DNA of 64,000 bases. It comes from Pseudomonas asiatica. GTDB taxonomy: Bacteria; Pseudomonadota; Gammaproteobacteria; Pseudomonadales; Pseudomonadaceae. The translations under genes and the position numbers were made by a program. Below the pieces are notes generated by a model. That model saw nothing but the letters and a program-made list of their open reading frames with translations, was not told the origin of the DNA and did not search any database. How positions within the stretch are numbered: the first letter of the stretch is position 1; each line of letters starts with the position of its first letter. The DNA lies in assembly GCF_040214835.1 (NCBI RefSeq), contig NZ_CP157874.1, forward strand, positions 810,001-874,000. The letters are read 5' to 3'. Shown piece after piece: positions 4,740-43,390 of the stretch.

Positions 4740-4833
4740 GGTGATGCTCCAGCGCGGTTGTTGTGGGCCGGCGCAGTACGCGGGCCTTATTGTGGGTGCG
4801 ATGGCAGGGCGGCAGGGCCGCGTAAATGGATGA

Positions 4834-6722: not shown

Positions 6723-6737
6723 CGCGACAATCGTCGG

Positions 6738-8904: not shown

Positions 8905-8966
8905 GGTTCGACCTGAATAATCGGATTACACAGGGAATGGCACGGCAAGCGCCATGCCACCTCGAT

Positions 8967-9821: not shown

Positions 9822-9980
9822 CAATGAAGCTCCTGTTTGTTATAAAAACCGTCGTCGACGGCTCTGTGTTAGGAGGCAGTGGAGCAAAACAGCGAAAACA
9901 GGTCGGTCTTTTGTTCGAAGCTGCCGGGCAGCGGGAGTTCGACCTTGGGCCGAGCATACAAAAGCTGAAACGGCCATTGC

Positions 9981-9997
9981 ATTGCACTAGGACAATT
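9981..9997. promoter_or_regulatory. Candidate EnuR operator between ehuB and enuR
   Basis: ATTGCACTAGGACAATT here matches ATTGCCCTAGTACATTC at 11591-11607 before eutB: the shared pattern is ATTGCNCTAGNACANT. The copy here is also a near inverted repeat (ATTG-N8-CAAT). Both divergent ends of the import operon and the catabolic operon therefore carry the same box, as expected for the pathway regulator. Confidence 0.5.
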
Positions 9998-10057
9998 GCC
10001 CGAAGCACTTGTACGGGGGATGCTGTGACCCTGGCCCCGGCAAGTGAAGCGAACATC

Positions 10058-11455: not shown

Positions 11456-11460
11456 GCGGC

Positions 11461-11568
11461 CTGTACCGGCCTCTTCGCGGGTAAACCCGCTCCCACAGGT
11501 TCCGTGCGAGGTTCAGGAAATGCGCGATTCCTGTGGGAGCGGGTTTACCCGCGAAGAGGCCGGTACAG
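11461..11568. repeat. REP pair, family A
   Basis: Two inverted family A REP units directly after the regulator stop codon and before the eutB promoter; a possible mRNA 3' end stabiliser. Confidence 0.85.
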
Positions 11569-11590
11569 GCAAAAACAAATTCCCCGGCAA

Positions 11591-11607
11591 ATTGCCCTAG
11601 TACATTC
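11591..11607. promoter_or_regulatory. Candidate EnuR operator upstream of eutB
   Basis: ATTGCCCTAGTACATTC, 63 bp before the eutB start, shares ATTGCNCTAGNACANT with 9981-9997. Only two copies were spotted, so the motif needs support from other genomes. Confidence 0.45.
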
Positions 11608-11669
11608 ATCACGACAATTTTCGCCTCATACACTCCGCCCAACATCAGCTCACTTGTTGGGTCCCGGTC

Positions 11670-12641
11670 ATGTCAGCGCTCTCGCTTCACGATCTCTACC
11701 TCGCCCGCCAGCGTATCCACGGCCTGGTGCGCAGCACGCCGCTGGAACTTTCCCCCAGCCTGTCACGGCACCTGGGCACGCCGGTCTACCTGAAGCTCGA
11801 AGCCCTGCAGACCACCGGCAGCTTCAAGCTGCGCGGCGCCAGCAATGCCATCGCCGCACTCAGCGCGGAACAACGCGCTTGCGGCGTGGTTACGGCCTCC
11901 ACCGGCAATCACGGCCGGGCGGTGGCCCACGCTGCTGCGCAACTGGGCGTGAAGGCAACCGTGTTTCTTTCGCAACTGGTGCCAGCCAACAAGGTCCAGG
12001 CCATCCGCGACCTGGGCGCCGAAGTGTGCATCGTCGGCCACTCCCAGGACGATGCCCAACAGGCCGCGCAACAACATGCCGGGCAACAGGGTGCAACGCT
12101 GATTCCACCTTTCGATCACCCCCAGGTCATCGCCGGCCAGGGCACGCTGGGCCTGGAAATCATCGAGCAGTTGCCCGAGGTGGAGCAGGTGCTGATTCCG
12201 CTCTCCGGTGGTGGCCTGTTCGCGGGTGTGGCGTTGGCCATGAAAAGCATAAAGCCGGCGATCACCACCCATGGCATCAGCATGCAGCGCGGCGCGGCGA
12301 TGTACGCCAGCCTGCAGGCCGGCAGGCCAGTCGAGGTAGAGGAGCTGCCGACACTCGCCGACTCGCTTGGTGGCGGCATCGGCCTGGGCAACCAGCACAC
12401 CCTGAGCATGACCCAGCGCCTGCTCGACCAACTCCACCTGCTGCCGGAAGCGTCGATCGCCAATGGCATGCGCCACGCCTACCAGCACGAGCGGTTGGTA
12501 CTCGAAGGTGCCGGCGCAGTCGGCATCGCCGCGCTGCTCGACGGCCTGGTGACGGCCCGCGGCCCGGTCGTGGTGGTGGTCAGCGGGCGCAACGTTGACA
12601 GCGCACAGCATCAGCGCGTCCTCAACGGCGGCGACGCCTGA
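11670..12641 (+). CDS. eutB: Hydroxyectoine utilization dehydratase EutB
   Basis: 323 residues of the threonine dehydratase (PLP fold type II) family. PLP lysine K53 in TTGSFKLRGASNA; phosphate-binding SGGGLFAG near the middle; no C-terminal ACT domain, as expected for EutB. It is thought to work with EutA and EutC to turn hydroxyectoine into ectoine. First gene of the catabolic operon. eutA, normally beside it, is not in this window. Confidence 0.85.
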   Translation: MSALSLHDLYLARQRIHGLVRSTPLELSPSLSRHLGTPVYLKLEALQTTGSFKLRGASNAIAALSAEQRACGVVTASTGNHGRAVAHAAAQLGVKATVFLSQLVPANKVQAIRDLGAEVCIVGHSQDDAQQAAQQHAGQQGATLIPPFDHPQVIAGQGTLGLEIIEQLPEVEQVLIPLSGGGLFAGVALAMKSIKPAITTHGISMQRGAAMYASLQAGRPVEVEELPTLADSLGGGIGLGNQHTLSMTQRLLDQLHLLPEASIANGMRHAYQHERLVLEGAGAVGIAALLDGLVTARGPVVVVVSGRNVDSAQHQRVLNGGDA

Positions 12642-12672
12642 AATTCACGTTTCCTTCACTGGAGGTATTCGA

Positions 12673-13665
12673 ATGCCGGCCATCACCTTGCTCAGCGAAG
12701 CCGACCTGCGTAGCTGCATCACCCTCGACCGCAACGCGATCGATGCCATCGAGCAGGCCTTTGCCCTGCTTGCCACGGCCAAGGTGGCGATGCCGCCGAT
12801 CCTGCGCCTGGATGTGCCCGAGCACAACGGTGAGGTGGACGTGAAAACCGCCTACCTGCCAGGGCTGGAGCGTTTCGCGATCAAGGTCAGCCCGGGCTTT
12901 TTCGACAACCCCAAGCTTGGCCTGCCCAGCCTCAACGGCATGATGATGCTGCTGTCGGCCCGCACTGGCCTGCTCGATGCCTTGCTCCTCGACAATGGCT
13001 ACCTCACCGCCGTGCGCACCGCTGCAGCCGGTGCGGTAGCTGCACGCTGGCTGTCGCGGCAGGACAGCCGCAGCGTGGCCTTGATCGGCAGTGGCGAACA
13101 GGCACGCCTGCAGCTGCAGGCACTGCGCCTGGTGCGGCCGATCGAGCAGGTCAAGGTGTGGGGGCGCGATGCGCAGAGAACCGCAGCGTTATGTGACGAC
13201 CTGGGGCGTGATGGGCAACTGCAGGTACAGGCCTGCGACAGTGTCGACCAGGCCATGCAGGCGGTCGATATCGCCATCACCTGCACCCCCAGCCGCGAGC
13301 CGCTGATCCAGCCGCATCACCTGCAACCGGGGCTGCACATCACTGCCATGGGCTCGGATGCCGAGCACAAGAACGAGATCGCGCCCACGGCCCTGGCCCG
13401 GCTTGATCGTTATGTCGCCGACCGCCTGAGCCAGACCCGCGTGCTGGGCGAACTGCACCACGCCTTGCGCGCTGGCGCGGTCAGCGAGCAGGCCATTCAT
13501 TCCGAGCTGGGCCAGATCATCGCCGGCCTGCACCCGGGCCGTGTGCAGGCCGAAGAGGTCACCCTGTGCGACCTGACCGGCACCGGGGCCCAGGACACCG
13601 CCATCGCCAACCTTGCCTTCGAACGCGCAATCGCCGCCCACAAAGGCCTGGCGTTTCACAGCTGA
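12673..13665 (+). CDS. eutC: Ectoine utilization protein EutC (ornithine cyclodeaminase family)
   Basis: 330 residues from ATG 12673, preceded by GGAGG; the longer frame from 12595 overlaps eutB and is unlikely. Ornithine cyclodeaminase/mu-crystallin fold with Rossmann motif VALIGSGEQARLQ and the NAD-binding stretch ITCTPSREPLI. Proposed to act with EutB in the hydroxyectoine branch. 31 bp after eutB, co-transcribed. Confidence 0.85.
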   Translation: MPAITLLSEADLRSCITLDRNAIDAIEQAFALLATAKVAMPPILRLDVPEHNGEVDVKTAYLPGLERFAIKVSPGFFDNPKLGLPSLNGMMMLLSARTGLLDALLLDNGYLTAVRTAAAGAVAARWLSRQDSRSVALIGSGEQARLQLQALRLVRPIEQVKVWGRDAQRTAALCDDLGRDGQLQVQACDSVDQAMQAVDIAITCTPSREPLIQPHHLQPGLHITAMGSDAEHKNEIAPTALARLDRYVADRLSQTRVLGELHHALRAGAVSEQAIHSELGQIIAGLHPGRVQAEEVTLCDLTGTGAQDTAIANLAFERAIAAHKGLAFHS

Positions 13666-13701
13666 CAGTTTTCACAACCCACTCACAAGAAGGGCATCCG
13701 T

Positions 13702-14892
13702 ATGTCACAGACAGTGGTCAACCTGCCATTCGGTCGGCAGGAGTACGCCCAGCGCCTGGCCAAGACCCGCGCGGCCATGCAGGCACAGGGCCTGGAGCTT
13801 TTGCTGGTTACCGATCCATCGAACATGGCCTGGCTCACCGGCTATGACGGCTGGTCGTTCTACGTGCACCAGTGCGTGCTGCTGGCGCTCGATGGCGAGC
13901 CGATCTGGTTTGGCCGCGGCCAGGACGCCAATGGCGCAAGGCGCACGGTGTTCATGCAGCACGACAACATCGTCGGCTACCCGGACATCTATGTGCAGTC
14001 ACGCGAGCGCCACCCGATGGACTACCTGTGCCAGGAGGTGATTCTGGCCAAGGGCTGGGGCGGCCTGAGCATCGGCGTGGAGATGGACAACTACTACTTC
14101 AGCGCGGCGGCCTACCAGGCGCTGTGCAAGCACCTGCCACAGGCGCGTTTCAGCGATGCCGCCGGGCTGGTCAACTGGCAGCGGGCGGTCAAGTCGCCGC
14201 AGGAAATCGAATACATGCGTATCGCCGCGCGCATCGTCAAACAGATGCACGGGTGCATCCTCGAACGCATCGAGCCCGGCATGCGCAAGAACGAGCTGGT
14301 GGCCGAGATCTACCGCAGCGGCATCCTCGGTGTCGATGGCCATGGCGGCGACTACCCGGCCATCGTGCCGTTGCTGCCGACTGGCGCTGATGCCAGCGCG
14401 CCGCACCTTACCTGGGACGATTCCCCGTTCACCCGCGGCGCCGGCACGTTCTTCGAGATTGCCGGCTGCTACAAGCGCTACCACTGCCCGCTGTCGCGCA
14501 CCGTGTACCTGGGCAAGCCGCCGCAACACTTTCTCGATGGCGAAAAGGCGGTGGTCGAAGGTATCGCGGCCGGCCTCGATGCCGCGCGGCCAGGCAACAC
14601 CACCGGTGACATCGCCAGGGCGTTCTTCCGCGTACTGGAGAAGTTCGGCATACACAAGGACAGCCGCTGTGGTTACCCGATCGGTATCAGCTACCCGCCA
14701 GATTGGGGCGAGCGCACCATGAGCCTGCGCCCGAGCGACACCAGCGTGCTGCAACCGGGCATGACCTTCCACTTCATGCCGGGGCTGTGGATGGATGACT
14801 GGGGCCTGGAGATCACCGAAAGCATCCTCATCACCGAGACCGGGGTCGAGACCCTGTGCAACGTGCCGCGCCAGCTGTTCGTGAAGGACTGA
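13702..14892 (+). CDS. doeA: Ectoine hydrolase DoeA (EutD), M24 fold
   Basis: 396 residues: an N-terminal creatinase-like domain, then the pita-bread domain. It opens the ectoine ring to N-acetyl-diaminobutyrate isomers. Metal ligands of M24 peptidases are not conserved: the usual first Asp is Glu in FFEIAGCYKRYH, the second position reads CPLSRT, and the usual His site reads GYPIGISY. This fits a creatinase-like, metal-free hydrolase. SD AAGGGC before ATG 13702; three bases separate its stop from the doeB start. Confidence 0.88.
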   Translation: MSQTVVNLPFGRQEYAQRLAKTRAAMQAQGLELLLVTDPSNMAWLTGYDGWSFYVHQCVLLALDGEPIWFGRGQDANGARRTVFMQHDNIVGYPDIYVQSRERHPMDYLCQEVILAKGWGGLSIGVEMDNYYFSAAAYQALCKHLPQARFSDAAGLVNWQRAVKSPQEIEYMRIAARIVKQMHGCILERIEPGMRKNELVAEIYRSGILGVDGHGGDYPAIVPLLPTGADASAPHLTWDDSPFTRGAGTFFEIAGCYKRYHCPLSRTVYLGKPPQHFLDGEKAVVEGIAAGLDAARPGNTTGDIARAFFRVLEKFGIHKDSRCGYPIGISYPPDWGERTMSLRPSDTSVLQPGMTFHFMPGLWMDDWGLEITESILITETGVETLCNVPRQLFVKD

Positions 14893-14895
14893 CCC

Positions 14896-15915
14896 ATGAA
14901 TGCGATCGCACAGGCCGCCGCCACGGTGGCCAACCCCATCACCTGTACCTTGGATTTCGAGCAGGATGGCGTGCAGCACGGCTTCCTCAAGCTGCCGTAC
15001 TCGCGTGACGACTCGGCCTGGGGGGCGGTGATGATTCCGCTGACGGTGGTCAGGAACGGCAATGGCCCGACAGCCTTGCTCACGGGGGGCAATCACGGTG
15101 ACGAATACGAAGGCCCGGTGGCGCTGAGCAAGCTGGCCCAGCAGCTGCAGGCCGGGCAGGTAAGCGGGCGGGTGATCATCGTGCCGTTCATGAACACACC
15201 GGCGTTCCAGGCGGGCACCCGCACCTCGCCGATCGACCGGGGCAACCTCAACCGCAGCTTCCCTGGCCGGCCTGATGGCAGCGTGACGGAAAAGATCGCC
15301 GACTATTTCCGCCGCACCTTGCTGCCGTTGGCCGATATTGTCCTGGACATCCACTCCGGTGGTCGCACCCTCGATTTCCTGCCGTTCGCTGCATGCCATG
15401 TGCTGCCCGACAAGGCCCAGCAGGCCCGTTGTGAAGCCGGCATGCAGGCCTTCGCCGCGCCCTACAGCATGCGCATGCTCGAGCTGGATGCGCAGGCGAT
15501 GTACGACACCGCGGCAGAAGAGCAGGGCAAGGTGTTCATCACCACCGAACTGGGCGGTGGTGGCACCTCCACGGCGAAAAGCGTGGCCCTGGCGGAGCGC
15601 GGCGTGCGCAATGTGCTGATCCACGCCGGCATCCTCGCCGGCGAAGTGGAGCAGGGCGAGACAACCCTGCTGGACATGCCCGATGGCGATTGCTTCATCG
15701 CCAGCGAGCACGACGGATTGCTGGAGATGTGCCGCGACCTGGGCGAAACGGTCAGCCAGGGCGAAGTGATCGCCCGTATCCATGACATCCGCCGCACCGG
15801 CAGCGCCCCGGTCGAGTACCGCGCCCGACGCAATGGCTTGCTCGCAGCCCGGCACTTTCCCGGCCTGGTGCAGTGCGGCGACACCCTGGCGGTGATCGCC
15901 GACGTACTGGCCTGA
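14896..15915 (+). CDS. doeB: N-acetyl-L-2,4-diaminobutyrate deacetylase DoeB
   Basis: 339 residues of the succinylglutamate desuccinylase/aspartoacylase zinc family. Zinc ligands appear in GGNHGDEYEG (His67, Glu70) and in LDIHSGG near residue 153. It removes the acetyl group from the product of DoeA, giving 2,4-diaminobutyrate and acetate. Immediately downstream of doeA. Confidence 0.88.
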   Translation: MNAIAQAAATVANPITCTLDFEQDGVQHGFLKLPYSRDDSAWGAVMIPLTVVRNGNGPTALLTGGNHGDEYEGPVALSKLAQQLQAGQVSGRVIIVPFMNTPAFQAGTRTSPIDRGNLNRSFPGRPDGSVTEKIADYFRRTLLPLADIVLDIHSGGRTLDFLPFAACHVLPDKAQQARCEAGMQAFAAPYSMRMLELDAQAMYDTAAEEQGKVFITTELGGGGTSTAKSVALAERGVRNVLIHAGILAGEVEQGETTLLDMPDGDCFIASEHDGLLEMCRDLGETVSQGEVIARIHDIRRTGSAPVEYRARRNGLLAARHFPGLVQCGDTLAVIADVLA

Positions 15916-15951
15916 ACCTGGCGTCACGACAACGAGGTATGGAGAACAGTC

Positions 15952-17418
15952 ATGTCACACCACTACCCATTCAACAGCCTGTGCCACGTCGATGGCCAAT
16001 GGCTGCACAGCCACAGTGGCAACAGCGTCGCCGTGCATGACCCGGCCAACCGCCAGGTCATCGGCCATGTGCCGCTGCTCGACCATGAGCAGATCGTCGC
16101 CGCGGTGGATGCCGCCCAGCGGGCTTTCCCGGCCTGGCGCCAGCAGAGCCTGGACAGCCGCGCTGCGCTGTTGCGGCGCTGGGCCGAATTGATGCTCGAG
16201 CACCAGGAGGCTCTGGCGCGCATTCTCAGCGAGGAGCAGGGCAAGCCGCTGGCCGAAGCACGCGGTGAAATCGCCTATGCGGCAAGCTTCATCCCCTGGT
16301 TTGCCGAGGAGGCCCGGCGCCTCAACGGGCAGACCATCCCCAGCCATATTCCGGGTGCCCAGCTGAGTACGCTGAAGGAGCCCGTCGGGGTCTGCGCGCT
16401 GCTCACCCCGTGGAACTTCCCCAGCGCCATGATCACCCGCAAGGCGGCTGCGGCGTTGGCGGCCGGCTGCACGGTGGTGGTCAAGCCGGCCCACGAAACA
16501 CCGTTCTCGGCGCTGGCCCTGGCCCAGCTGGCAGAGGACGCCGGCTTCCCGCCGGGGGTGTTCAACGTGGTGATTGGCGAGCCGCAGATGGCCATGGAAA
16601 CCCTGGTGCGCGACAGCCGCGTGCGGGCGGTCAGCTTCACCGGCTCGACCCGGGTCGGCAAGCTGGTGCTGCAAGCCGCGGCTCAGGATGTGAAGAAAGT
16701 GGCGCTGGAGCTGGGCGGCAACGCGCCGTTCATCGTCTGCGCCGATGCCGACCTGGAGCTGGCCGTGCGGGTGGCCGTGGCCGCCAAGTTCCAGACGTCT
16801 GGCCAGGACTGCTGCGCGGCCAACCGGATCATGGTGCAGCGGCCGTTGTACGAAGCATTCCTGGCGCGCTTCGCCGAAGCGGTGCGGGCGCTGAAGGTTG
16901 GCCCGGCGATGGTCGATAGTGAGGAGACGGCCGCAGAGGTCGGCCCGTTGATGCACCAGGCCGCCTTCGATGCCACCCAGGCCCGGGTCGAGGACGCCCT
17001 GCAGCGTGGCGCCCGGCGCCTGGTCGGTGGCGAGGGCCATGCGCTGGGTGGCTGGTTCTTCCAGCCGACGGTGCTTGCCGATGTCACGCCGGCGATGCGC
17101 ATCTACCAGGAAGAAAACTTCGCGCCGATTGCCGGGGTCATGCCGTTCGACACGCTGGAGCAGGCCATCACCATGGCCAATGACACCGAGTACGGCCTGG
17201 CTGCCTACATCGTCGGCAACCGCCTCGATGTCGTGCACCCGCTGGTGCGCCGGCTCGACCACGCGATGGTGGCGATCAACGGCGTCAAGTTCACCGGCCA
17301 CCCCATCCCGTTCGGCGGCATGAAGGCCTCGGGCCTGGGCCGCGAAGGCGGCAGCGAGGGCTTCGAACCCTTCGTCGAAACCAAATACGTTTGCTTGCAC
17401 CACCACGGTCAGTTCTAA
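15952..17418 (+). CDS. doeC: Aldehyde dehydrogenase, probably aspartate-semialdehyde dehydrogenase DoeC
   Basis: 488 residues, GabD-like. Catalytic Asn155 (PWNF), Glu253 (LELGG) and Cys287 (GQDC) are present. In ectoine breakdown the transaminase product aspartate semialdehyde is oxidised to aspartate by a GabD-like enzyme, so context favours DoeC; on sequence alone succinate-semialdehyde dehydrogenase is equally possible. 36 bp after doeB and 12 bp before doeD. Confidence 0.75.
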   Translation: MSHHYPFNSLCHVDGQWLHSHSGNSVAVHDPANRQVIGHVPLLDHEQIVAAVDAAQRAFPAWRQQSLDSRAALLRRWAELMLEHQEALARILSEEQGKPLAEARGEIAYAASFIPWFAEEARRLNGQTIPSHIPGAQLSTLKEPVGVCALLTPWNFPSAMITRKAAAALAAGCTVVVKPAHETPFSALALAQLAEDAGFPPGVFNVVIGEPQMAMETLVRDSRVRAVSFTGSTRVGKLVLQAAAQDVKKVALELGGNAPFIVCADADLELAVRVAVAAKFQTSGQDCCAANRIMVQRPLYEAFLARFAEAVRALKVGPAMVDSEETAAEVGPLMHQAAFDATQARVEDALQRGARRLVGGEGHALGGWFFQPTVLADVTPAMRIYQEENFAPIAGVMPFDTLEQAITMANDTEYGLAAYIVGNRLDVVHPLVRRLDHAMVAINGVKFTGHPIPFGGMKASGLGREGGSEGFEPFVETKYVCLHHHGQF

Positions 17419-17430
17419 GGAGTGTTTGCC

Positions 17431-18816
17431 ATGAGCCAAGATTTCAGCCAGCTGTTCGAACAGGACCGCGCCCACTTCATGCACCCCTCGACCCACGCCC
17501 ATGACCACGCCAGCGGCGCGCTCAAGGGCCGGATCATCACCGGTGCCGAGGGCATCCGCCTGCGTGACCATGAAGGCCGCGAACTGATCGACGCATTCGC
17601 CGGCCTGTACTGCGTGAACATCGGTTACGGGCGTACCGAGGTCGCTGACGCCATCCATCGCCAGGCCAAGGAGCTGGCGTATTACCACACCTACGTCGGC
17701 CACTCGACCGAGGCGATCATCGAGCTTTCCAGCCGCATCATCGACTGGGCGCCGGCCGGGATGAAAAAGGTCTATTACGGCCTGTCGGGGTCCGATGCCA
17801 ACGAGACCCAGGTCAAGCTGGTGCGCTACTACAACAACATCCTCGGTCGCCCACTCAAGAAGAAGATCATCTCTCGCGACCGCGGCTATCACGGCTCGGG
17901 CATCATGACCGGCAGCCTTACCGGCCTGCCCAGCTTCCACCAGCATTTCGACCTGCCGGTGGAGGGCGTCAAGCATACGGTCTGCCCGCACTGGTACCGC
18001 AAGGCACCGGCCGGCATGGATGAGCAGGCCTTCGTGCGCTATTGCGCCGACGAGCTGGAGCAACTGATCCTGGCCGAAGGGCCCGACACCGTCGCCGCGT
18101 TCATTGGCGAGCCGCTGATGGGCACTGGTGGCATCATCGTGCCGCCGAAGGGCTACTGGAAGGCGATCCAGGCTGTGCTCGATCGCTACGACGTGCTGCT
18201 GATCGCCGACGAAGTGGTGTGCGCCTTCGGCCGCCTGGGCTCGAAGATGGGCAGCCAGCGCTACGACATCCGCCCGGACCTGATCACCACGGCCAAGGGC
18301 CTGACCAGCGCCTATGCGCCGCTGTCGGCAGTGATCGTTGGTGAGAAGGTGTGGAACGTGATCGAAGAGGGCTCGCAGAAGGCCGGCCCGATGGGCCACG
18401 GCTGGACCTACTCCGGGCACCCGATCTGCGCGGCGGCGGCGCTGGCCAACCTGGATATTCTCGAGCGCGAGAACCTGACCGAGAATGCCGAAGTGGTGGG
18501 GGCATACCTGAACCGGCGCATGCGCGAAACCTTCGAAGGCCACCCGCTGGTAGGTGAAGTACGGGGTGACGGCATGCTTTGCGCGGTCGAATTCATGGCC
18601 GATCGCGAGGCGCGCACGGCGTTCGACCCGGCGTTGAAAGTCGGGCCACAGGTATCGGCAGCGTGTCTTGAGCGCGGGATGATCGCCCGGGCCATGCCGC
18701 ATGGTGACATTCTCGGCTTTGCACCGCCGTTGGTGCTGGACCAGGAGGATGCCGAAAAGATCGTCGCCATCACCAGGGCGGCGGTCGATGAGGTGGCTGG
18801 CAAGGTGCTCGGCTGA
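17431..18816 (+). CDS. doeD: L-2,4-diaminobutyrate transaminase DoeD (class III)
   Basis: 461 residues from ATG 17431 with AAGGAG 9 bases upstream. Class III aminotransferase: Asp260 (LLIADEVVCAFGR) contacts PLP nitrogen, Lys289 (LITTAKGLTSAY) forms the aldimine. It converts diaminobutyrate to aspartate semialdehyde, linking DoeB to the dehydrogenase. Last clear gene of the catabolic operon. Confidence 0.85.
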   Translation: MSQDFSQLFEQDRAHFMHPSTHAHDHASGALKGRIITGAEGIRLRDHEGRELIDAFAGLYCVNIGYGRTEVADAIHRQAKELAYYHTYVGHSTEAIIELSSRIIDWAPAGMKKVYYGLSGSDANETQVKLVRYYNNILGRPLKKKIISRDRGYHGSGIMTGSLTGLPSFHQHFDLPVEGVKHTVCPHWYRKAPAGMDEQAFVRYCADELEQLILAEGPDTVAAFIGEPLMGTGGIIVPPKGYWKAIQAVLDRYDVLLIADEVVCAFGRLGSKMGSQRYDIRPDLITTAKGLTSAYAPLSAVIVGEKVWNVIEEGSQKAGPMGHGWTYSGHPICAAAALANLDILERENLTENAEVVGAYLNRRMRETFEGHPLVGEVRGDGMLCAVEFMADREARTAFDPALKVGPQVSAACLERGMIARAMPHGDILGFAPPLVLDQEDAEKIVAITRAAVDEVAGKVLG

Positions 18817-30493: not shown

Positions 30494-31087
30494 TTACTCG
30501 GCAGCGCCTTCTGCTTCTGGAGCAACGCGTGGAGCGTGAACGTTGGCAACAGCTTTGTCATCACCGTGGGCCAGAGCTACGAACTCTACGCCTTTCGGAG
30601 CTTTCAGGTCCGACAGGTGGATGATGGTGCCGATTTCAGCGTTGGCCAGGTCGACTTCGATGAACTCAGGCAGGTCTTTGGCTTCGCAGGAAACTTCGAT
30701 CTCGGCTTCTACGTGGGAGATCTCGCCGCCTTTCTTGACCGGGGCTTCTTCGTTGATGAAGTGAACCGGTACCTTGGCGGTCAGTTTCTGGCCAGCAACG
30801 ACGCGAACGAAGTCGGCGTGCATGATGAAGCCTTTGGCCGGGTGGCGCTGCAGAGCCTTGACCACGACGTTTTGCTTGGCGCCGTCGACGTTCAGTTCCA
30901 GAACGTGGCTGAAGGCAGCCTCGTTTTCGAACAGCTTGGTGATTTCCTTGGCCAGGATGGTCAGGGACTGGGCGTCCTGGTTACCACCGTAGACAACGGC
31001 TGGGATGTTCGCGGAGTGACGCAGGCGGCGGCTCGCACCTTTCCCCAGGTCAGTACGCGCTTGGGCGTTCAGAGTGAATTCGGTCAT
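30494..31087 (-). CDS. rplY: 50S ribosomal protein L25 (CTC form)
   Basis: 197 residues from ATG 31087 ([23 protein letters not shown]). N-terminal 5S rRNA-binding L25 domain and a C-terminal TL5/CTC beta domain, ending in an acidic Ala/Glu tail. The longer upstream frame runs toward the prs terminator and is not coding. Confidence 0.95.
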
Positions 31088-31144
31088 TTTGTTTCTCCAA
31101 AATAGCCCCCCGAGGGCGTTTGCGACCAGCGCCAACGGGGATGG

Positions 31145-31188
31145 CAAAAAAGCCCCGCCCCAACAACCAGTGTTGGGGCGGGGCGCTT
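31145..31188 (-). terminator. Terminator between prs and rplY
   Basis: Minus strand: GC-rich 14-bp stem (GCCCCGCCCCAACA with its inverse) followed by six T. Placed after the prs stop and before the rplY start, so rplY needs its own promoter or read-through. Confidence 0.85.
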
Positions 31189-35500: not shown

Positions 35501-35687
35501 AGAAGGCTTTAAGAGGACTCACCGGCGGTCGGAGCATGATGACACAAGCGCGGGGGCAAACCCACCTGCGAAGGTCGTGGTTTACAGGCTGGGTGGTGCA
35601 GAGTGGGACAGCGGGGTGGGGGAGAGGTTCGAAGGGGCTTCTGACACAATGACCCAGCCCCTGCCTGCACCGACAATTTTGTCGAGA

Positions 35688-36413
35688 TCACAGGTCAGGA
35701 TAGATCCGCTCGTATAGTGCCACGTCGCTGGGGCAGTCAATTTCTCCCCAGGGAGCGTGCGTCGCCACGCCGGCGACTGGAAAACCTTCGCTGACTAGTG
35801 CCCCTAATAGCGATGTCATGTCAGTCTGGTCGCGTGCCTGAGGCGTGAGCCCTTGCAATTGCCTTTTCAACGCCTGCCAACCCGCTGGCGTGACTTTGAA
35901 CAAGCCTATGTACTGGCCCTGAATGACCTCAAGACTGGTAGCGGTCTGTCCAATAGCGCTCACCAATCCATCGACTAAGCGGAAGTTCTCCAGGTCTGGT
36001 AGCGGATCGTTGAAGCGTTGCTGCCAGAGACGCACTGCAGCGGGATCGTAGCCCAGGACAATATCGGCTGGATGGTTAATTAGCTCGGATACTAGGGTGC
36101 TGTCGTAGAAGATGTCACCGTAGCTAACAAGGCAAGGCTCTGCGCTCAACCAACCGCTGGCGCAATTTAGAGAGCTGAAAATACCGGAGCTGTGCCAGCG
36201 GTGGTTGTGAAACAAAGTGTCGGCGAATGGTGCAAGCATTTCGCTTCGATAGCCTGCAACGATGCCAACCTCGCTGACATCGCATCGACGGAGCGTTTCA
36301 ATCGCGCGCTGTAGCAGTGGCACACCATTAAAGGGTACCAAGGCCTTGGGGCGTTCATCGGTCAGGGCTTGTAAGCGACTCCCGCGACCTGCAGCAAGAA
36401 TAATGGCTTTCAT
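35688..36413 (-). CDS. Nucleotidyltransferase, probable CTP:phosphoglutamine cytidylyltransferase
   Basis: 241 residues from ATG 36413 (GGAG 9 bases upstream). LAAGRGSRL at 6-14, the RPKAL lysine near 24, metal-binding SYGDIFYD around 97-104, and a second acid in EIDCPSDVALYE near the end: LicC-like fold. Alone it could be a phosphocholine-type enzyme. Next to the glutamine kinase-like and amidotransferase genes it best fits the Campylobacter Cj1416 role: CTP + L-glutamine phosphate to CDP-L-glutamine. Start overlaps the previous stop as ATGA. Confidence 0.72.
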   Translation of the reverse strand: MKAIILAAGRGSRLQALTDERPKALVPFNGVPLLQRAIETLRRCDVSEVGIVAGYRSEMLAPFADTLFHNHRWHSSGIFSSLNCASGWLSAEPCLVSYGDIFYDSTLVSELINHPADIVLGYDPAAVRLWQQRFNDPLPDLENFRLVDGLVSAIGQTATSLEVIQGQYIGLFKVTPAGWQALKRQLQGLTPQARDQTDMTSLLGALVSEGFPVAGVATHAPWGEIDCPSDVALYERIYPDL

Positions 36414-37012
36414 GAAAAAGCTCCAAAGGCATGTCGCACGCGTTGAATATCCAATGGATCGGCAGGTAGTTCTCGCTCGGGGTGCCACATGATCCCGGTA
36501 TGCCGACGGTGGTCGTCATACACAGCCTCGATCACGCCGTCGTCGGCCAGGGCTAGTACGCGGTAGCCGTCGGGCGCCTCCCGAAAGCCGTATTCATGAT
36601 AGGAATTCACTCGCCGCCGTTGTTCTTGCATGTTGATCATGTGTTCGCCTACATGGCCGGCCAAGCGTTCCAAAGTGCCGCCAGCTCGCGTCAACATTAC
36701 CTGCATGCCGCGGCATACACCGAGCACCGGAAGCCGTAGATTTTCCGCAAGATCAAGCAAGACCCTCTCAGTGGCGTCGCGTGTGTCGGCTGTCCCACTC
36801 AGGGCCTGGCAGCTCCCTCCACCAGTAAGCAAGAGGCCCTGAGGGCGCAATGATTGGACTAGCGCCATGCTGACTCTCGGATCGTTTGGAAGGTACAGCG
36901 GGGTCAGCCCACATTGGTCTAAGAATTCAACCCAGCGTTGGTCGAGCGCGTCCCGCCATTCCTGGCGTTCGGCGTTGAACTGCCTGAGCATGGTCATCCC
37001 AACCAAAATCAT
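36410..37012 (-). CDS. Class I glutamine amidotransferase, probable gamma-glutamyl-CDP-amidate hydrolase
   Basis: 200 residues from ATG 37012, overlapping the kinase stop as ATGA. Catalytic triad visible: Cys100 (GVCRGMQ), His177 and Glu179 (HPERE). Length and position match Cj1417, which cuts CDP-L-glutamine into cytidine diphosphoramidate and glutamate. Generic alternative: a gamma-glutamyl-GABA hydrolase-like enzyme (PuuD), but no polyamine genes are nearby. Confidence 0.74.
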   Translation of the reverse strand: MILVGMTMLRQFNAERQEWRDALDQRWVEFLDQCGLTPLYLPNDPRVSMALVQSLRPQGLLLTGGGSCQALSGTADTRDATERVLLDLAENLRLPVLGVCRGMQVMLTRAGGTLERLAGHVGEHMINMQEQRRRVNSYHEYGFREAPDGYRVLALADDGVIEAVYDDHRRHTGIMWHPERELPADPLDIQRVRHAFGAFS

Positions 37013-39369
37013 GCCAGCACCTGTATACGCCGCTCGGCGCAGTCGAGCAGCAGGCTTGTCGCCGCCAATAGGGTTTTGAATCGAGTATCGCCCACGCCGA
37101 TAGCTGCGGGAATGGCAAACTCTCGGGCTCGGATCGACATATGCGAGTTCTCGCCTCCGTAGGCGGTGATGAAACCAGCAATGCGGTGGGTAAAAATCCA
37201 ATCAAAACCCGGATCAGCGTTTTCGATTAAGACAATGCAATCCTCAATGTCCGGTGCCAATTGCCCAGGAAGCACTAGGGCCACCCGCGCGTGAGTGGCA
37301 CGTCGAGTGATGAAGTTGGGATTGCACCAGTGCACTCGATGGCCGAATAGATCTTGCGGCTGACAGATGATGCTTGGCGTACGGACTAACTGCGTTTCAT
37401 GCCAGCGGCTGCGGTTGTGGGCAATCGCTTGATGCAAACGTTTGCGATCGATGTCGGCGTAAACGCTGGTAAATTCGGTGATTTGCGCAAAGCTGAGTTG
37501 GTCGCGGTCAAAACCATGTACCTCACCCCAATCGCATAGTGAGCGCAAAACATCCGAAACAAACGCTGCATAGAGGTATTTGAGCTTCTCGCGCGATGCA
37601 ATAGCGGCCTGAGCAAATTGCAGGAACTGCTCGGCGGAAACGTTAAGACCGCACTGGTCAAAAGCTTGCTGAATGGCGTTGACCTGGGCCCGAGATACAG
37701 TTAGCCCGTTCATAGATTTTTGGGGCCGCTGTAATGGGCGCTGCCAGTCAAAATAACGCTCCGGAGTCTCGTCGTAGCGTGACACACGTATATCGTAGGT
37801 ACCCGGCCGGACATGACCGTGCAGCTTTAGGAAATCGTCCTTATGCAACGTCTGGAAATCGCTGGCCATCTCGCGACCGATACTATTGACCCCTCCGGTC
37901 ACATGATCGATGAAACCGGCAGATACTACCCCCGCTGTTTCCAGCGATTTAATTATTGCGGTACCTATGAACGCTGCACGGGCAGCGCCAGCGAATATTT
38001 CAGCGACCACGTTGGCCGCCGATAGGCCATTCCTCATACGTTGCAAGGACTCGCGCCGAGGTTCCCCCGCCATTAAACTCTGCACCTTGTCAGTAATACT
38101 CGGTAGGCGTGTCAGGTCGGAGAAGAACGGGCCGCTGGGGGAGATAATGTGCTCGGTCAACTGGCGTAGCTCGTTCAAGTAGCATTCGTGCTGCTCGGTA
38201 CTAAGAGTCCGGAGCGCCGGCAGCGCGGCAGCGGCACCGGGGCTAGTAAGCTCTGGCGTGAAGCAAGTAGGAATGATCGCGAACTCGATCTTGTCATGCA
38301 GATGAGGATGCATGGCCAAATAGTCGCCGCACTGTTCGACTACGCGCTCGGCAACATCTTGAGGTACCGAGGCAGGGATGAATGACTCGATGCTGTGGGC
38401 AATGCAGATGTAAGGAGAGCCACCCACCTGGTACATCAGCGGTTTGCGCCGCAGATCCCGGTAGCCGTATCGGAACCTGGCAGAGGCCCAATTAAGGTCA
38501 GTGATCAGCTCCTTATATAGCGAGTAGGCTAGCGCCCGCGGCTTGGTACCGATCATTTCCGCCGGGTTCCAGTCCGGCATAAGGCCAAGGAAGGCGGTCG
38601 ACGCAGGACGCGGATGGCGTTGCTTGCAGATCAGCTCTTCGAGCTGAGAGGCCTCGTGCTCCAAAACTTTGCGTAGTTGGGCGTCGGCAAGTGCGCTGGC
38701 ATTACGGGGCCCATCCGCGGTCATGGGACGCACTTGGAATAGCAGAGGGCCATCGACAGTGATCGCGAACTCTATGTCCAAGGCATCGTGCCCGGTTAGA
38801 ACTTGTACCTCTTCGAGCAACGAAAACAGCCCTGGTAATTCCGCAGGCTCGCTTGCCGCCTCGCTGCCAAGGGAGACGAAAGCGTGCACAGTCTCGTTGC
38901 CGGCAGTGACACCGTCGGTGCTGGCACCTAGTACATAGTCAACTACGTAATATGGCAAACCCGTCTCTGGATCACGGGTCATCGCCACTCCGCTGGCCAA
39001 TACACCTCTCGCCATCTGCTGCACCAGCACCTCATCGCGCTCGCGAGCTAGGCCGTAGGATGCGATCACCGTCTTGATGGCTTCGCCGAGTGCCTGGCCG
39101 CCACATACATCTAGAATTGACGCGTACATCCCTGCACCGGAATGGCCGTCGCGGTCTTCGGCTAGACAGCTGGATCTTACAATCAGCGGCTCATCGCCAA
39201 AGAACGCCTGACAGTGCGCGATCACTGCCTGCCAGTCCTCCCGCCACTGTGCCACGGTGAATCGATGAAGGGGCAACACTTGCCCGGTGCTCAGAAGTGG
39301 TGCCAGTTGCTGCAGGGTATCGGCCTTGCCGGAAAAAGTGAACACGGGAGAAGGATTTACCGAGTGCAT
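37009..39369 (-). CDS. PEP-synthase-like L-glutamine kinase
   Basis: 786 residues. N-terminal PPDK/PEP-synthase ATP-binding domain (LIVRSSCLAEDRDGHSGAG near 60-78, then SGVAMTRDPETGLPYYVVDY), a long middle part, and a C-terminal swivelling domain with the phosphorylatable His743 in GGENSHMSIRARE. There is no PEP-binding TIM barrel after it, unlike PEP synthase, but like Cj1418, which phosphorylates the amide nitrogen of L-glutamine. AGGGAAG precedes ATG 39369. Third gene from the 3' end of the island operon. Confidence 0.78.
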   Translation of the reverse strand: MHSVNPSPVFTFSGKADTLQQLAPLLSTGQVLPLHRFTVAQWREDWQAVIAHCQAFFGDEPLIVRSSCLAEDRDGHSGAGMYASILDVCGGQALGEAIKTVIASYGLARERDEVLVQQMARGVLASGVAMTRDPETGLPYYVVDYVLGASTDGVTAGNETVHAFVSLGSEAASEPAELPGLFSLLEEVQVLTGHDALDIEFAITVDGPLLFQVRPMTADGPRNASALADAQLRKVLEHEASQLEELICKQRHPRPASTAFLGLMPDWNPAEMIGTKPRALAYSLYKELITDLNWASARFRYGYRDLRRKPLMYQVGGSPYICIAHSIESFIPASVPQDVAERVVEQCGDYLAMHPHLHDKIEFAIIPTCFTPELTSPGAAAALPALRTLSTEQHECYLNELRQLTEHIISPSGPFFSDLTRLPSITDKVQSLMAGEPRRESLQRMRNGLSAANVVAEIFAGAARAAFIGTAIIKSLETAGVVSAGFIDHVTGGVNSIGREMASDFQTLHKDDFLKLHGHVRPGTYDIRVSRYDETPERYFDWQRPLQRPQKSMNGLTVSRAQVNAIQQAFDQCGLNVSAEQFLQFAQAAIASREKLKYLYAAFVSDVLRSLCDWGEVHGFDRDQLSFAQITEFTSVYADIDRKRLHQAIAHNRSRWHETQLVRTPSIICQPQDLFGHRVHWCNPNFITRRATHARVALVLPGQLAPDIEDCIVLIENADPGFDWIFTHRIAGFITAYGGENSHMSIRAREFAIPAAIGVGDTRFKTLLAATSLLLDCAERRIQVLA

Positions 39370-39428
39370 ATGTCTTCCCTAATCAGTCCAATCAGTCCTT
39401 CGCAGGGGGCTGTCAGTTTGTGTCAGGT

Positions 39429-40739
39429 TTAAGCCAACTCGGCGCCGGTATAAGTCGCGAGTTCAAGGCCGTAAAGTGAGGACAGCTCGCGCAGGAAGCG
39501 ATTGCCCTTTTTCGCCGCAGCGTAGGGGCAGTCGTCCTCAACGATGACGTGGCCAATTGTGCCGATGTTGCCGCTATAGACGTTTACCGCCTGGCCAGGC
39601 GCAACGTGGGCGGTGCAAAACCGGATGTTGTACTTGTCCAGTAATGGCTGTAGGGAGTCGGGGGCGTAGTCGTTGGCGATATGACCGCCATTGCGGGAGG
39701 CGACAGTTACGACGCTACCTGCGCGCTGAAGCACTGAGTCGTCAATTAGAATGGGCTCGCCTAGGTGCAGACGGACTAGCAGTTCGAACGGGTCGATGCC
39801 GGTCAGCATCCGGTACATCTGCGGCGCTACGCTACCCATCATGCGTGCGTTGATCTCCACTAGACAGGGCCCTTTGGCATCGCGCAACAGTTCAACATGA
39901 TAAAGGCCAACATCCAGCCCCAGAGCGCTGAACACTGCCTGCACATATGCTTTGATCTCGTCGCGCTGTGCTGCGTCAAGGCCTGACGGCATGGTCGCGG
40001 TCATTTCTAATATTTCGCTATGGTCGGCGCGGAAACGGATGGTGGTCGCAAAGCAGGAGACCTTGGCGTCTTGGACGATGACTTCCGCTGAATGCAATGT
40101 ACCGTCGATGTATTGCTCGACCAGATAGTCGCTGCTTATCAAGTGGTCGATCATAGGATCAGCACCCTTGCGACTCTGGCGCAGCTCGGCGAGAAAGGCG
40201 TCAAAGTCGGCCTGGCTATGGCAAATGGCGGAAAACTGCTTGGCGAATCCGCGGGTCGGCTTGACAACGAATGGCAGCGACAAACTCGGAGCGACCCCGT
40301 TGATCAGTTGCTCTTCGCTCAGTACTTCAAAATCAGGAGAGCGTAGTCCGTGTGCCCGCAGCGTCTCGCGCAATCGACTCTTGTATACCGCCCCGCACAG
40401 AGCTTCGTACCTCGGGTAGAGGGTGCCGATACGCTGGGCCTCACGCGCCACCGGTACTATGGCTGCTTCTGAGGTAGAGATGAGGGCGTCAATAGGACGC
40501 TCTGCGTGCAGGTTGGCCAACAACTGGCTGAGTTCGCCGTCTTCCAGATTATCGATACGCAAATAAGTATCCACATATCGCAGGTAAGGCTCGAGACGGG
40601 AGGTGTCGTCCTTGATCGAGATCGTCAGGAACGAGGCGTCGCGCTGATGAATGAAGGTGACATGGCAGCCAAGCCGTTTGGCTGCCTCAAAAGCCAGCAG
40701 GCCGCTTACGGTGCTGTCGACGAAAACCACGTGTTTCAT
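39429..40739 (-). CDS. ATP-grasp carboxylate-amine ligase
   Basis: 436 residues. N-terminal preATP-grasp part with cofactor-like MKHVVFVDSTVSG, ATP-grasp core (LPFVVKPTRGFAKQFS; metal-binding HVELLRDAKGPCLVEINARMMG), and a C-terminal extension. Resembles L-amino acid ligases that make dipeptides or amides by acyl-phosphate chemistry. In this operon it could join an amino acid to the P-N moiety or to its acceptor. 59 bp before the glutamine kinase gene; substrate unknown. Confidence 0.75.
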   Translation of the reverse strand: MKHVVFVDSTVSGLLAFEAAKRLGCHVTFIHQRDASFLTISIKDDTSRLEPYLRYVDTYLRIDNLEDGELSQLLANLHAERPIDALISTSEAAIVPVAREAQRIGTLYPRYEALCGAVYKSRLRETLRAHGLRSPDFEVLSEEQLINGVAPSLSLPFVVKPTRGFAKQFSAICHSQADFDAFLAELRQSRKGADPMIDHLISSDYLVEQYIDGTLHSAEVIVQDAKVSCFATTIRFRADHSEILEMTATMPSGLDAAQRDEIKAYVQAVFSALGLDVGLYHVELLRDAKGPCLVEINARMMGSVAPQMYRMLTGIDPFELLVRLHLGEPILIDDSVLQRAGSVVTVASRNGGHIANDYAPDSLQPLLDKYNIRFCTAHVAPGQAVNVYSGNIGTIGHVIVEDDCPYAAAKKGNRFLRELSSLYGLELATYTGAELA

Positions 40740-40751
40740 TGGAACCTCGGA

Positions 40752-41369
40752 TTACCAGGGATGAAAGTAAATGGTGCTGAGCCCGAACAGCATTGCGAAG
40801 CAAGCGACCGTCGAAAGTGCGCCATACTTGGGAATTCTCAAGCTGGTGACCTGGAGGATGCCGACCAGGGCCACCAGGCCGACGATCACACCGGCACCGT
40901 AATGCCCGGCCGATAGCCCCATCAGCGCCAGCGCAAAGACAAATCCTGAATATGTGGTGGGTAGTCCCTGATATCCCCCGTCAGCCGATGTGCTGGGCAT
41001 GCCAAACAGCGATAACCGCAAAATGGCCGTGAAAACCAGAGTTGCTGCGGCCAGCGTGGCCGAAAGAGACTGGTCGAGGATTAGGATGACAAGGGCTGGC
41101 GTGATGCTGAAATTGAGCAAGTCGGCAAAACTGTCTAGATGCTTGCCGAAGGCCCGTTGCGCGTTGTTCGCCGCCAGGTAGCGTCGGGCTATGTGGCCGT
41201 CAAGGAAATCGAGCATCGCGGCCAGGCAAATCACCGTTGCCGCCAGAACGAACCGTCCTTGCAACGCAAAATAAACAGTACCGAAGGCCAAGCCGATATT
41301 GAACATTGTTAATATGTTCGCCAAATCCAAAAGGCGGACGAACGGAAATACACGCGCCAATGTGGGCAT
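40752..41369 (-). CDS. PssA-like CDP-alcohol phosphotransferase
   Basis: 205 residues, about six membrane helices. CDP-alcohol motif D-x2-D-G-x2-A-R-x12-G-x3-D-x3-D is in DFLDGHIARR to FGKHLDSFAD; the spacer is 12 rather than the usual 8-9. Enzymes of this fold move a phosphoryl-R group from a CDP-linked donor to an alcohol, releasing CMP. The neighbours should make CDP-NH2, so a phosphoramidate transfer is plausible (inference). AAGGAG before ATG 41369. Confidence 0.75.
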   Translation of the reverse strand: MPTLARVFPFVRLLDLANILTMFNIGLAFGTVYFALQGRFVLAATVICLAAMLDFLDGHIARRYLAANNAQRAFGKHLDSFADLLNFSITPALVILILDQSLSATLAAATLVFTAILRLSLFGMPSTSADGGYQGLPTTYSGFVFALALMGLSAGHYGAGVIVGLVALVGILQVTSLRIPKYGALSTVACFAMLFGLSTIYFHPW

Positions 41370-41392
41370 ATTGTTCTCCTTGAAGAAGCTAT

Positions 41393-42586
41393 TTAGACAG
41401 GCTGTTTTCCCTTGATCGCAACTGTCTTTCGAAGGGCGTTGGTTGCGACGAAATAGAAAGCAACGAAGATAGCGCTCGTGCTGAACAGGCCTGCATACTT
41501 AACCAGAATTGAACCGACGAAGATGGTAATTATCATGCCTAAGTACACCCCGGCATACTGGACAGATGCCATCAACGGCATGGCACTGGTAGGTGTGCTC
41601 CTGACAAGATCGGCTTGCAACTTGAAAAATGTCAATTCGAAAAAGAATATGTATAAAAAATACGCGATGTAACTGGACTGAATATCATGGCCGAACGCTG
41701 CGAGCATCATGAACAGGCCGCTGACTACAGCCATCGGCATAGGTAGCGGTCGCAAATTACACTTGTCCAAACGATAGAACAGTACTGCGCCCACCAAAGC
41801 TGCCACACTATTGACGGCCTGCAACAAGCCGACATACACCTCTCCCAAGCCCAGCACATGTGCCGGTAACAGCACCCTGGACACATTGAAGAAACCCTGA
41901 AAAAGGCTGACGAAGACGATGAACTGATAGAGGCTGAGGCGTAGCGCGGGATACTCCTGCAAAAGCGAACCAAGGGCAGTCAATAGTCTTGGTGCGACCT
42001 GCACGGTGATCGGAGGCTTTGTTGGCGCAGGTAGTAGATAGCCCGCCAAAGCCGCGATGGAAAAAAGACTGACAGTAATGAGCAGGGCTAACCCAGGCGT
42101 CATGTTGGCTTTGAACAGTACCAGACTGATGCCTGCCAGGCCGCCGGCAATGAATTGTGCGGTGAGTGTCAGAGGCACTGAGCTGGCGATTTGCGCACTC
42201 GGGAAATAACACTTGATGGCAACAATACGTCCTACCCGTTGCAGCGCATCCAGGGCGCCAATGACTACCGCGCCTAACACGGCGACTTCCACATGATGTG
42301 GCAGGATCTTGTAGGTGACCGCCGCGCAGCCCAGCGACAGCAAGTTGGCACTCCACAGCAAGGTGCGTGGCGCTAGATAGTCAGCCAGGCGGTAGATAGG
42401 AGCGACAAGAATTACCGGTAGAACCATTGGCGCAAACAGCACCACTTGGGAAAGTATTAGGCTGGCAGTATTAGCATAAATATAGTAGGAAAGATAAATA
42501 TAACTCAGCGTAGAGGCCGAAATGGCACACAAGTTAACGCCCCAAAGGAGCACTGAGTGCCTACGAGATGCAGCAAATTCTTCCAT
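41393..42586 (-). CDS. MFS-type transporter
   Basis: 397 residues, roughly 11-12 membrane helices arranged in two halves, without a signal peptide. First gene of the island operon and 23 bp ahead of the CDP-alcohol enzyme, so it is probably the exporter (or self-protection pump) for the product. Family specificity cannot be read. The Shine-Dalgarno sequence is weak, and a perfect TATAAT lies only 12 bp before the ATG. Confidence 0.72.
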   Translation of the reverse strand: MEEFAASRRHSVLLWGVNLCAISASTLSYIYLSYYIYANTASLILSQVVLFAPMVLPVILVAPIYRLADYLAPRTLLWSANLLSLGCAAVTYKILPHHVEVAVLGAVVIGALDALQRVGRIVAIKCYFPSAQIASSVPLTLTAQFIAGGLAGISLVLFKANMTPGLALLITVSLFSIAALAGYLLPAPTKPPITVQVAPRLLTALGSLLQEYPALRLSLYQFIVFVSLFQGFFNVSRVLLPAHVLGLGEVYVGLLQAVNSVAALVGAVLFYRLDKCNLRPLPMPMAVVSGLFMMLAAFGHDIQSSYIAYFLYIFFFELTFFKLQADLVRSTPTSAMPLMASVQYAGVYLGMIITIFVGSILVKYAGLFSTSAIFVAFYFVATNALRKTVAIKGKQPV

Positions 42587-42597
42587 TGCTCGCGCCT

Positions 42598-42603
42598 ATT
42601 ATA
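42598..42603 (-). promoter_or_regulatory. Candidate -10 box of the island operon
   Basis: Minus-strand TATAAT. With usual spacing, transcription would begin about five bases before the MFS start codon, giving a near-leaderless mRNA; the -35 region (GCTTCA, 17 bp away) is poor. Alternative promoters in the AT-rich DNA upstream are equally possible. Confidence 0.3.
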
Positions 42604-42956
42604 TAGCTTCCTGCCATGCATGAAGCATACCCTGCATAGAAAATCGTTTTGAGATAGTTAAACAAGAATTAAAAAAATGCTTGTTTTGGGCGCGTCACCA
42701 AGTAAGTGTGCATCATTGCAGTCCGTCAACATCTTTACTAACCCTCACCAACATAGCTTCTAATCATCAGCAAAATTAGTAGATAGAAATAAACCGACTG
42801 ACTGATAAAGCCATGCTATCCCACTCGTATCGCTGTCTCGGTGAGGAATATCGATGTGGCGGCGTCAAGACTAGGTGCGGAAGGAGGGTAGGGCAACAGC
42901 TGGGCATGTATTTGGGAAATGGACTACAAGACTGTGGATAAGTCTTATGGACATAT

Positions 42957-43022
42957 GTCAAAAGTCTTCTCGACCCGGTCGGCGTAGTTGGCTAGGGCGA
43001 TGTCGAGCCGATGGCTCTGGCT
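42957..43022 (-). pseudogene. Remnant of a TPR lipoprotein gene
   Basis: Minus-strand translation gives LDIALANYADRVEKT, against [15 protein letters not shown] at residues 66-80 of the intact TPR lipoprotein (33779-35500). Over the best 33 bases there are about 4 mismatches. A stop codon follows after a few residues and no more of the gene is recognisable upstream. Same orientation as the intact gene. Confidence 0.6.
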
Positions 43023-43070
43023 TTTGCTGTGACTGTTGCTTCTAAGCGCGCGGTAGATCAGGTGCTGCAG

Positions 43071-43215
43071 ATTGTGACTTCAGGAGGCCGAGCGTAGGGC
43101 TTGCTCCCGGGAGGGCTGCGCTGCAGGCCTCATCCTGGGGCCCAGCGCTTGACGGGCATCCATGCCCGTCACCTCTATGCGCAAGGCCTGCGTTCGGCCT
43201 CCTGAGGTCGCGAAG
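43071..43215. repeat. Palindromic intergenic element upstream of hemA
   Basis: About 145 bp bounded by imperfect inverted arms (CTTCAGGAGGCCGAGCG at 43078-43094 and CGTTCGGCCTCCTGAGG at 43191-43207), with an inner perfect hairpin GACGGGCATCCATGCCCGTC at 43151-43170. Looks like a MITE or structured-RNA element that I believe recurs in Pseudomonas intergenic DNA; no second copy in this window. Confidence 0.6.
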
Positions 43216-43390
43216 ATCAAGATCAGGATCAAAAGCCAGATCAAAAGCCGGCAAGACCTGAAAACACCGCTAGATCAGGCTACGAAAAGGCGATAGCCGC
43301 ACGACTATCAGCGCAATAGCGAACGGTGGTTGTCCAAAAACCTGCGAAAGAGGACAATTATCGGCTTCCCGTCACAACCAGCGACCTTGC

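Follow-up and report, generated by a model that had tools for sequence, protein, structure and literature searches.

A compact operon of six genes, read from the minus strand of a 64,000-nucleotide stretch of Pseudomonas asiatica DNA (the window; contig NZ_CP157874.1, positions 810,001 to 874,000), carries a gene trio that very probably makes cytidine diphosphoramidate (CDP-NH2), a judgment based on the protein families to which the three products belong. We further propose, at what we regard as an even chance of being correct, that the operon as a whole makes and exports a small peptide bearing an O-phosphoramidate group (O-PO2-NH2). The genes run from 42586 to 35688, the limits given in an earlier note on this DNA, and are separated by short gaps or joined by ATGA overlaps. 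They encode, starting with the first gene, a major facilitator superfamily (MFS) transporter and proposed exporter (41393..42586, 397 aa); a phosphatidylserine-synthase-like CDP-alcohol phosphotransferase, which we propose to be a CDP-NH2:amino-acid O-phosphoramidoyl transferase (40752..41369, 205 aa); an ATP-grasp protein resembling L-amino acid ligases (39429..40739, 436 aa); and the trio, which consists of a Cj1418-type L-glutamine kinase family protein (37009..39369, 786 aa), a Cj1417-type class I amidotransferase/hydrolase (36410..37012, 200 aa) and a MobA/LicC-like cytidylyltransferase in the Cj1416-type position (35688..36413, 241 aa). Pfam supports the assignment of each gene except that for the MFS protein. 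Four further genomes of the genus have the identical six-gene order (loci L010, L011, L012 and L143, with L142 in the same genome as L012), and the nearest named relatives of the operon are from Pseudomonas.

The gene trio

The kinase scored 784.9 bits against the NCBIfam model NF004508, exceeding the curated cut-off of 501, as compared with at most 47.6 bits against phosphoenolpyruvate (PEP) synthase models and 26.8 bits against rifampicin phosphotransferase. The grouping with either of these families that the earlier note had named as the danger to its reading did not appear. NF004508 is itself titled "hypothetical protein", and its tie to Cj1418 is one that we take from the source name "glutamine kinase" given to some relatives and from general knowledge of the family. 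The architecture described in the earlier note, an ATP domain and a swivelling His domain with no PEP barrel, agrees with Pfam, which places PF01326 at residues 49-152 and PF00391 at 709-778 and gives no match to a PEP barrel in this protein. The predicted His743 lies within the motif GGENSHMS and is invariant across 26 aligned rows, its own row counted.

ATGA overlaps join the amidotransferase gene to the kinase gene on one side and to the nucleotidyltransferase gene on the other, as had been claimed. The amidotransferase matches PF07722 (2.2e-24), and Cys100, His177 and Glu179, which have catalytic roles in class I amidotransferases, are all present where the earlier note had placed them. 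The third protein matches PF12804 (6.6e-20), and LicC (1jyk, 3.1e-9) is its second-best sequence match in the PDB, which bears out the LicC-like label.

From what is known of these families, the kinase would use ATP to place a phosphate on the amide nitrogen of L-glutamine, the cytidylyltransferase would join the resulting phospho-glutamine to CMP from CTP to give CDP-L-glutamine, and the amidotransferase would strip off glutamate to leave CDP-NH2. The family evidence for these three steps is strong. In the parts of the literature available, Cj1418 is reported to be an L-glutamine kinase (PMC10971088) and Cj1415-Cj1418 are reported to make CDP-phosphoramidate 3′-phosphate out of glutamine, ATP and CTP (PMC11800397); one review, in the part available, terms the kinase C. 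jejuni-specific (PMC9561416).

Trio loci in other genomes

The trio was surveyed at 93 kinase loci outside the window: 80 from a genome scan (the best 80 among at least 581 confirmed, as judged by likeness to the window kinase), four from plasmids, chosen from 15 records, and nine from 369 class genomes. Counting within a radius of 6 kb, all three trio genes are present at 86 of the 93 loci, or at 85 without L094, where the nucleotidyltransferase match falls inside the kinase frame. The kinase family keeps company with the other two trio genes across many phyla. Because of this frequency, and because the six-gene order recurs in four genomes, the association is not due to chance.

Most trio loci also carry a gene of the adenylylsulfate (APS) kinase family, to which the CDP-NH2 kinase Cj1415 presumably belongs. 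Such a gene lies at 65 of the 86 trio loci, eight of them as fusions to the kinase, and is absent at 21; PF01583 was verified on two representatives. By source, the counts are 62 of 74 for the genome scan, one of three for the plasmids and two of nine for the class genomes, where absence is uncertain since these nine loci span only about 5 kb, as it is at others cut by contig ends. Neither Pfam nor the survey profiles found an APS-kinase-family gene among the six operon proteins. The genome of the window also yielded no dedicated gene of this kind, its matches being a strong one within a 638-aa frame and a partial one of 22.4 bits.

In a quick tree of 107 kinases, in which related rows cannot be counted as independent in their neighbourhoods, the window kinase falls in a clade of 19 rows (SH-aLRT 99). 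Neighbours are known for seven of these (the window, L010, L011, L012, L006, L007 and L021), none with an APS-kinase gene, as compared with 68 of the 78 rows in the other main clade. Ten rows lie outside both clades; nine are outside loci, none of which has the gene, and the tenth is the PEP synthase of the same genome as the window, which fills just 20% of the alignment columns and is placed unreliably. This PEP synthase and 12 P proteins make up the 13 rows without a neighbourhood label. Both kinds of locus occur in Pseudomonas, since L042, L051, L054, L055 and L076, all of the APS-kinase type, fall in the 78-row clade.

The phosphotransferase and the proposed product

The best sequence and fold match of the CDP-alcohol phosphotransferase is phosphatidylserine synthase (MjPSS, 7pow/7b1k). 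In addition to the shared fold, Asp54, Asp57, Asp79, Ser80, Asp83, Arg118 and Phe122 preserve the CDP-alcohol motif and the serine-contact residues, which in MjPSS are Asp62, Ser63, Asp66 and Phe105 together with Arg101. The operon enzyme differs from MjPSS in that Ala59 is replaced by Lys and Arg104 is lost, in its score of 66.9 bits against the pssA model TIGR00473, below the cut-off of 107, and in its genomic company, a CDP-NH2-type trio in place of lipid genes. It also has a GLPTTY motif of its own, which is invariant and opens a helix. A profile for this protein found it at four of the 86 trio loci (L006, L010, L011 and L012), although other CDP-alcohol enzymes may be missed, as the survey profiles were themselves built from proteins of these loci, among them the A. 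vitis phosphotransferase. The L006 protein, part of that training set, was also found by the window protein alone (72 bits) and by PF01066.

The ATP-grasp protein has a fold nearest to L-amino acid ligases over a whole-chain alignment (to residue 425-426), whereas its identity to the ligases BL00235, BacD/YwfE and RizA in structural alignments is 15-21%. LAL_C2 (PF18603) is not among its five Pfam matches at E 0.001, and the sequence is too divergent for the domain to be excluded. Its relatives form a discrete family, with identities dropping from at least 43% to 29%. The MFS gene occupies the same place in four other genomes.

We propose that the phosphotransferase would accept CDP-NH2 as a look-alike of a CDP-alcohol. 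A small amino acid, most probably L-serine, would attack the beta-phosphorus through its hydroxyl, releasing CMP and yielding O-phosphoramidoyl-serine. The ATP-grasp ligase would then couple this to another amino acid, and the resulting dipeptide would be exported by the MFS protein. We infer the transfer and ligation from fold, residues and gene company and the export from gene order; the acceptor, the peptide and its second amino acid, the sequence of transfer and ligation, and the target in other cells are likewise proposals. A small exported P-N (phosphorus-nitrogen) metabolite in place of a surface sugar had already been suggested in the earlier note, and it is favoured here because APS-kinase-family and methyltransferase genes are missing while a phosphatidylserine-synthase-like enzyme and a ligase-like ATP-grasp protein are present.

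By structural comparison, O-phosphoramidoyl-serine would be an isostere of phosphinothricin, with the same skeleton but with CH2 changed to O and CH3 to NH2. Phosphinothricin is described, in the part of the source available, as a glutamine synthetase inhibitor that comes from a tripeptide (PMC6271674), and glutamine metabolism is for this reason the first target to consider; the sequence itself points to none. A more specific suggestion, which we offer tentatively and think doubtful, is that the products of the operon are dipeptides of O-phosphoramidoyl-L-serine, which would be a naturally made phosphinothricin isostere free of P-C bonds. An enzyme of the phospholipid type would transfer the NH2-phosphoryl group of CDP-NH2 onto a free amino acid, and the resulting compound would mimic the tetrahedral intermediate of glutamine synthetase or of glutamine amidotransferases in competitors. 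A competitor would take up the peptide and cleave it, making the compound a P-N counterpart of bialaphos.

Several observations weigh against the proposed scheme. The earlier note had an ATP-grasp ligase, a CDP-alcohol phosphotransferase and an MFS transporter completing the operon, and although Pfam bears out the first two, the match of the third to PF07690 (6.7e-6, 25.7 bits) falls below the cut-off of 33.4, and it has no NCBIfam match. The best NCBIfam model for the amidotransferase is NF045546, gamma-glutamyl-CDP-amidate hydrolase, yet its 92.7 bits, obtained with a frame (36413-37096) whose N-terminus is 28 residues longer, lie below the curated cut-off of 250 for this Campylobacter-type model. 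All five other trio hydrolases scored also fail (84.8 to 106.1 bits), including those of L091, L062 and L051, three loci where genes for an APS kinase and a methyltransferase are present. The cut-off may therefore be one that only enzymes like those of Campylobacter pass. The absence of an APS-kinase gene is not special to the window clade, since the nine loci outside both clades also lack it. Finally, the alterations at MjPSS positions 59 and 104 leave the acceptor open.

These altered residues give some room to an acceptor that is an amine, such as an ornithine-like side chain, in which case the product would be an N-linked P-N peptide like phaseolotoxin. The annotations in the available part of PMC3927611 lend this some support, as the phaseolotoxin cluster includes genes for a pyruvate phosphate dikinase (phtL), an adenylylsulfate kinase (phtS) and an L-amino acid ligase (phtU). 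However, the fold and serine-contact residues of the operon enzyme are of the O-phosphatidyltransferase type and none of the six operon proteins is of the amidinotransferase, aminotransferase or APS-kinase family, and we consider an amine acceptor unlikely.

The fold of the phosphotransferase is that of membrane enzymes from lipid synthesis, and in the choline phosphotransferases the acceptor is diacylglycerol. The phosphoramidate could likewise go to a lipid alcohol of this kind or to another membrane acceptor, with the ligase and the MFS protein serving something else, but we find this quite improbable. We think it no more probable that the enzyme is an ordinary extra phosphatidylserine synthase acting on CDP-diacylglycerol, with the trio supplying some other transferase. 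That reading would fit the best sequence and fold match, but a further phosphatidylserine-synthase-like gene (L101) exists elsewhere in the same genome, the score is under the pssA cut-off, the GLPTTY motif is the enzyme's own, and the enzyme accompanies the trio in five operons, with a trio-linked relative in A. vitis.

Since the trio is common to the pathway for capsular O-methyl phosphoramidate, the operon might instead be an incomplete module of that pathway, with the Cj1415 and transferase steps supplied from elsewhere in the genome. This is very unlikely: no dedicated APS-kinase-family gene was seen in the genome, no methyltransferase or surface gene was seen in the operon or among ten flanking genes scanned, bar a housekeeping PrmC-type protein, and the kinase lies in the other clade. 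The APS-kinase type does occur in other Pseudomonas. That the large protein is a relative of PEP synthases or rifampicin phosphotransferases with a different substrate, as their common ATP and His domains might suggest, is barely credible given the kinase scores, the missing PEP barrel and the trio context.

Insertion site and flanking genes

The host genome is a single contig of 5.85 Mb, in which the operon lies on a segment of about 7.7 kb (35580..43303) between a tetratricopeptide repeat (TPR) gene and hemA. In blastn comparisons with six related genomes, homology is interrupted between 35565-35580 and 43303-43314. All six have hemA and the TPR gene as neighbours. As judged from the ends of tblastn matches, the gap between the two measures 176 to 257 bp in four of the genomes, roughly 180 bp in L141 (an estimate, as the TPR match begins at residue 42) and 2.3 kb in L139, as compared with 7.9 kb here. 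GC content is 55.6% in the operon against 64.1% for the rest of the window, and the phosphotransferase is present in three of 298 genomes of the genus, its own counted. From these comparisons the operon is apparently accessory and acquired. No matches to hemA or the TPR gene were found in the stretches around the L010, L011, L012/L142 and L143 operons.

An inverted repeat lies upstream of the operon at 43076..43209, with arms of 29 nt that are 86% complementary and 76 nt between them. Positions 42974-43021, also upstream, have a likeness of 78-83% over 35-48 nt to the beginning of the adjacent TPR gene as it occurs in five of the six relatives, and may have been left behind by the insertion. 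In L139 (genome G003), a different insert of 2 kb with ORFs of 335 and 134 aa occupies the same gap at about 3880-5980, which suggests repeated uptake of accessory genes at this site.

The scan of flanking genes took in five per side; nine of the ten are of housekeeping-type families and one encodes a TPR protein. None is of a capsule or surface-polysaccharide family, in keeping with the earlier note's claim that no capsule genes are nearby; the scan left out the ORF at 30494-31147 in that stretch.

Related gene clusters

Several kinase loci of the survey have distinctive neighbours. A further candidate for P-N chemistry is the cluster of L034 (Streptacidiphilus pinicola, about 3959-18368). 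Its trio and APS kinase are accompanied by a class III aminotransferase, an L-amino acid ligase that includes LAL_C2, a protein whose GDSL match is below the cut-off, a LuxR-type regulator and an MFS protein. In L009 (Vibrio alfacsensis plasmid, 7359-13024), where no APS-kinase match was obtained, the gene after the trio is of the CDP-glycerol glycerophosphotransferase family, and its product might be a third type of transferase acting on CDP-NH2. The window-clade trio of L021 (Microbacteriaceae VKM Ac-2855, 8950-17107) precedes four genes, whose products are a member of the alpha-amylase family, a protein that Pfam leaves unmatched, a glycosyltransferase and an MFS protein; the cluster perhaps makes a P-N sugar compound. 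Beside the A. vitis operon of L006, a divergent minus-strand run (4095-7713) encodes a class II tRNA-synthetase-like protein, a TauD-type dioxygenase, an asparaginase II and a second LysE exporter, and may belong to the same product. At L007 (Cupriavidus taiwanensis plasmid), a glutamine-kinase-family gene (7962-10304) adjoins genes for an aminotransferase and a thiamine pyrophosphate enzyme, with nifK some 7.5 kb away; the other two trio genes were not found nearby.

A relative of the window ATP-grasp protein occurs in a six-gene Pseudomonas cluster (L151, 3539-10858) with a pyridoxal phosphate enzyme, an HMGL-like protein, a haem-oxygenase-like protein, a protein of no assigned family and an MFS protein. 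L152 has similar gene sizes, the families having been scanned in L151, and the cluster looks like another small-molecule operon.

Comparison with known systems

No description of the operon was found in the open-access literature, judged mostly by titles, the starts of abstracts and best-ranked matches, which is weak evidence of absence. In the same literature, as far as its available parts go, the Campylobacter capsule was the one use of the glutamine-kinase route found to have been characterised. The trio occurs in many phyla. In its large branch most loci have an APS-kinase-family gene; in the smaller branch, to which the window operon belongs, none was seen. On the doubtful dipeptide reading given above, CDP-NH2 would serve generally as a donor of P-N groups, one branch of its use leading to capsules and another to natural products. 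The proposed transfer, if right, would give CDP-NH2 a second fate, the CDP-alcohol phosphotransferase family a new donor, and P-N amino-acid natural products a short six-gene route. Were the product the phosphinothricin isostere, it would represent a new class of glutamine-metabolism inhibitor and a possible antimetabolite.

Compared by family models, the operon is like Cj1415-Cj1418 of C. jejuni in that the kinase, hydrolase and cytidylyltransferase families are adjacent as a set. In Campylobacter, Cj1415 puts a 3′-phosphate on CDP-NH2 and capsule transferases follow. The window operon, in contrast, is without a Cj1415-type gene or methyltransferase, has no capsule genes among its ten scanned neighbours, and adds the phosphotransferase, ATP-grasp and MFS genes. 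The likeness to bialaphos and phosphinothricin of Streptomyces, as they appear in the available part of PMC6271674, is one of product: the proposed compound would match phosphinothricin atom for atom and would also be delivered as a peptide. Those compounds have P-C bonds and a different pathway, and we claim no gene relationship.

The phaseolotoxin cluster of Pseudomonas syringae, compared by the annotations in the available part of PMC3927611, also concerns a P-N peptide antimetabolite and has genes for a pyruvate phosphate dikinase-like protein and an L-amino acid ligase, and by analogy may share P-N chemistry with the operon. It differs in comprising 23 genes, with an amidinotransferase, an ornithine aminotransferase and an APS kinase that have no counterpart among the six operon proteins, and the part of its gene table examined lists no CDP-alcohol phosphotransferase (PMC3927611). 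A P-N peptide is already known from Pseudomonas; what would be new is a route to one by way of CDP-NH2 and a phosphotransferase.

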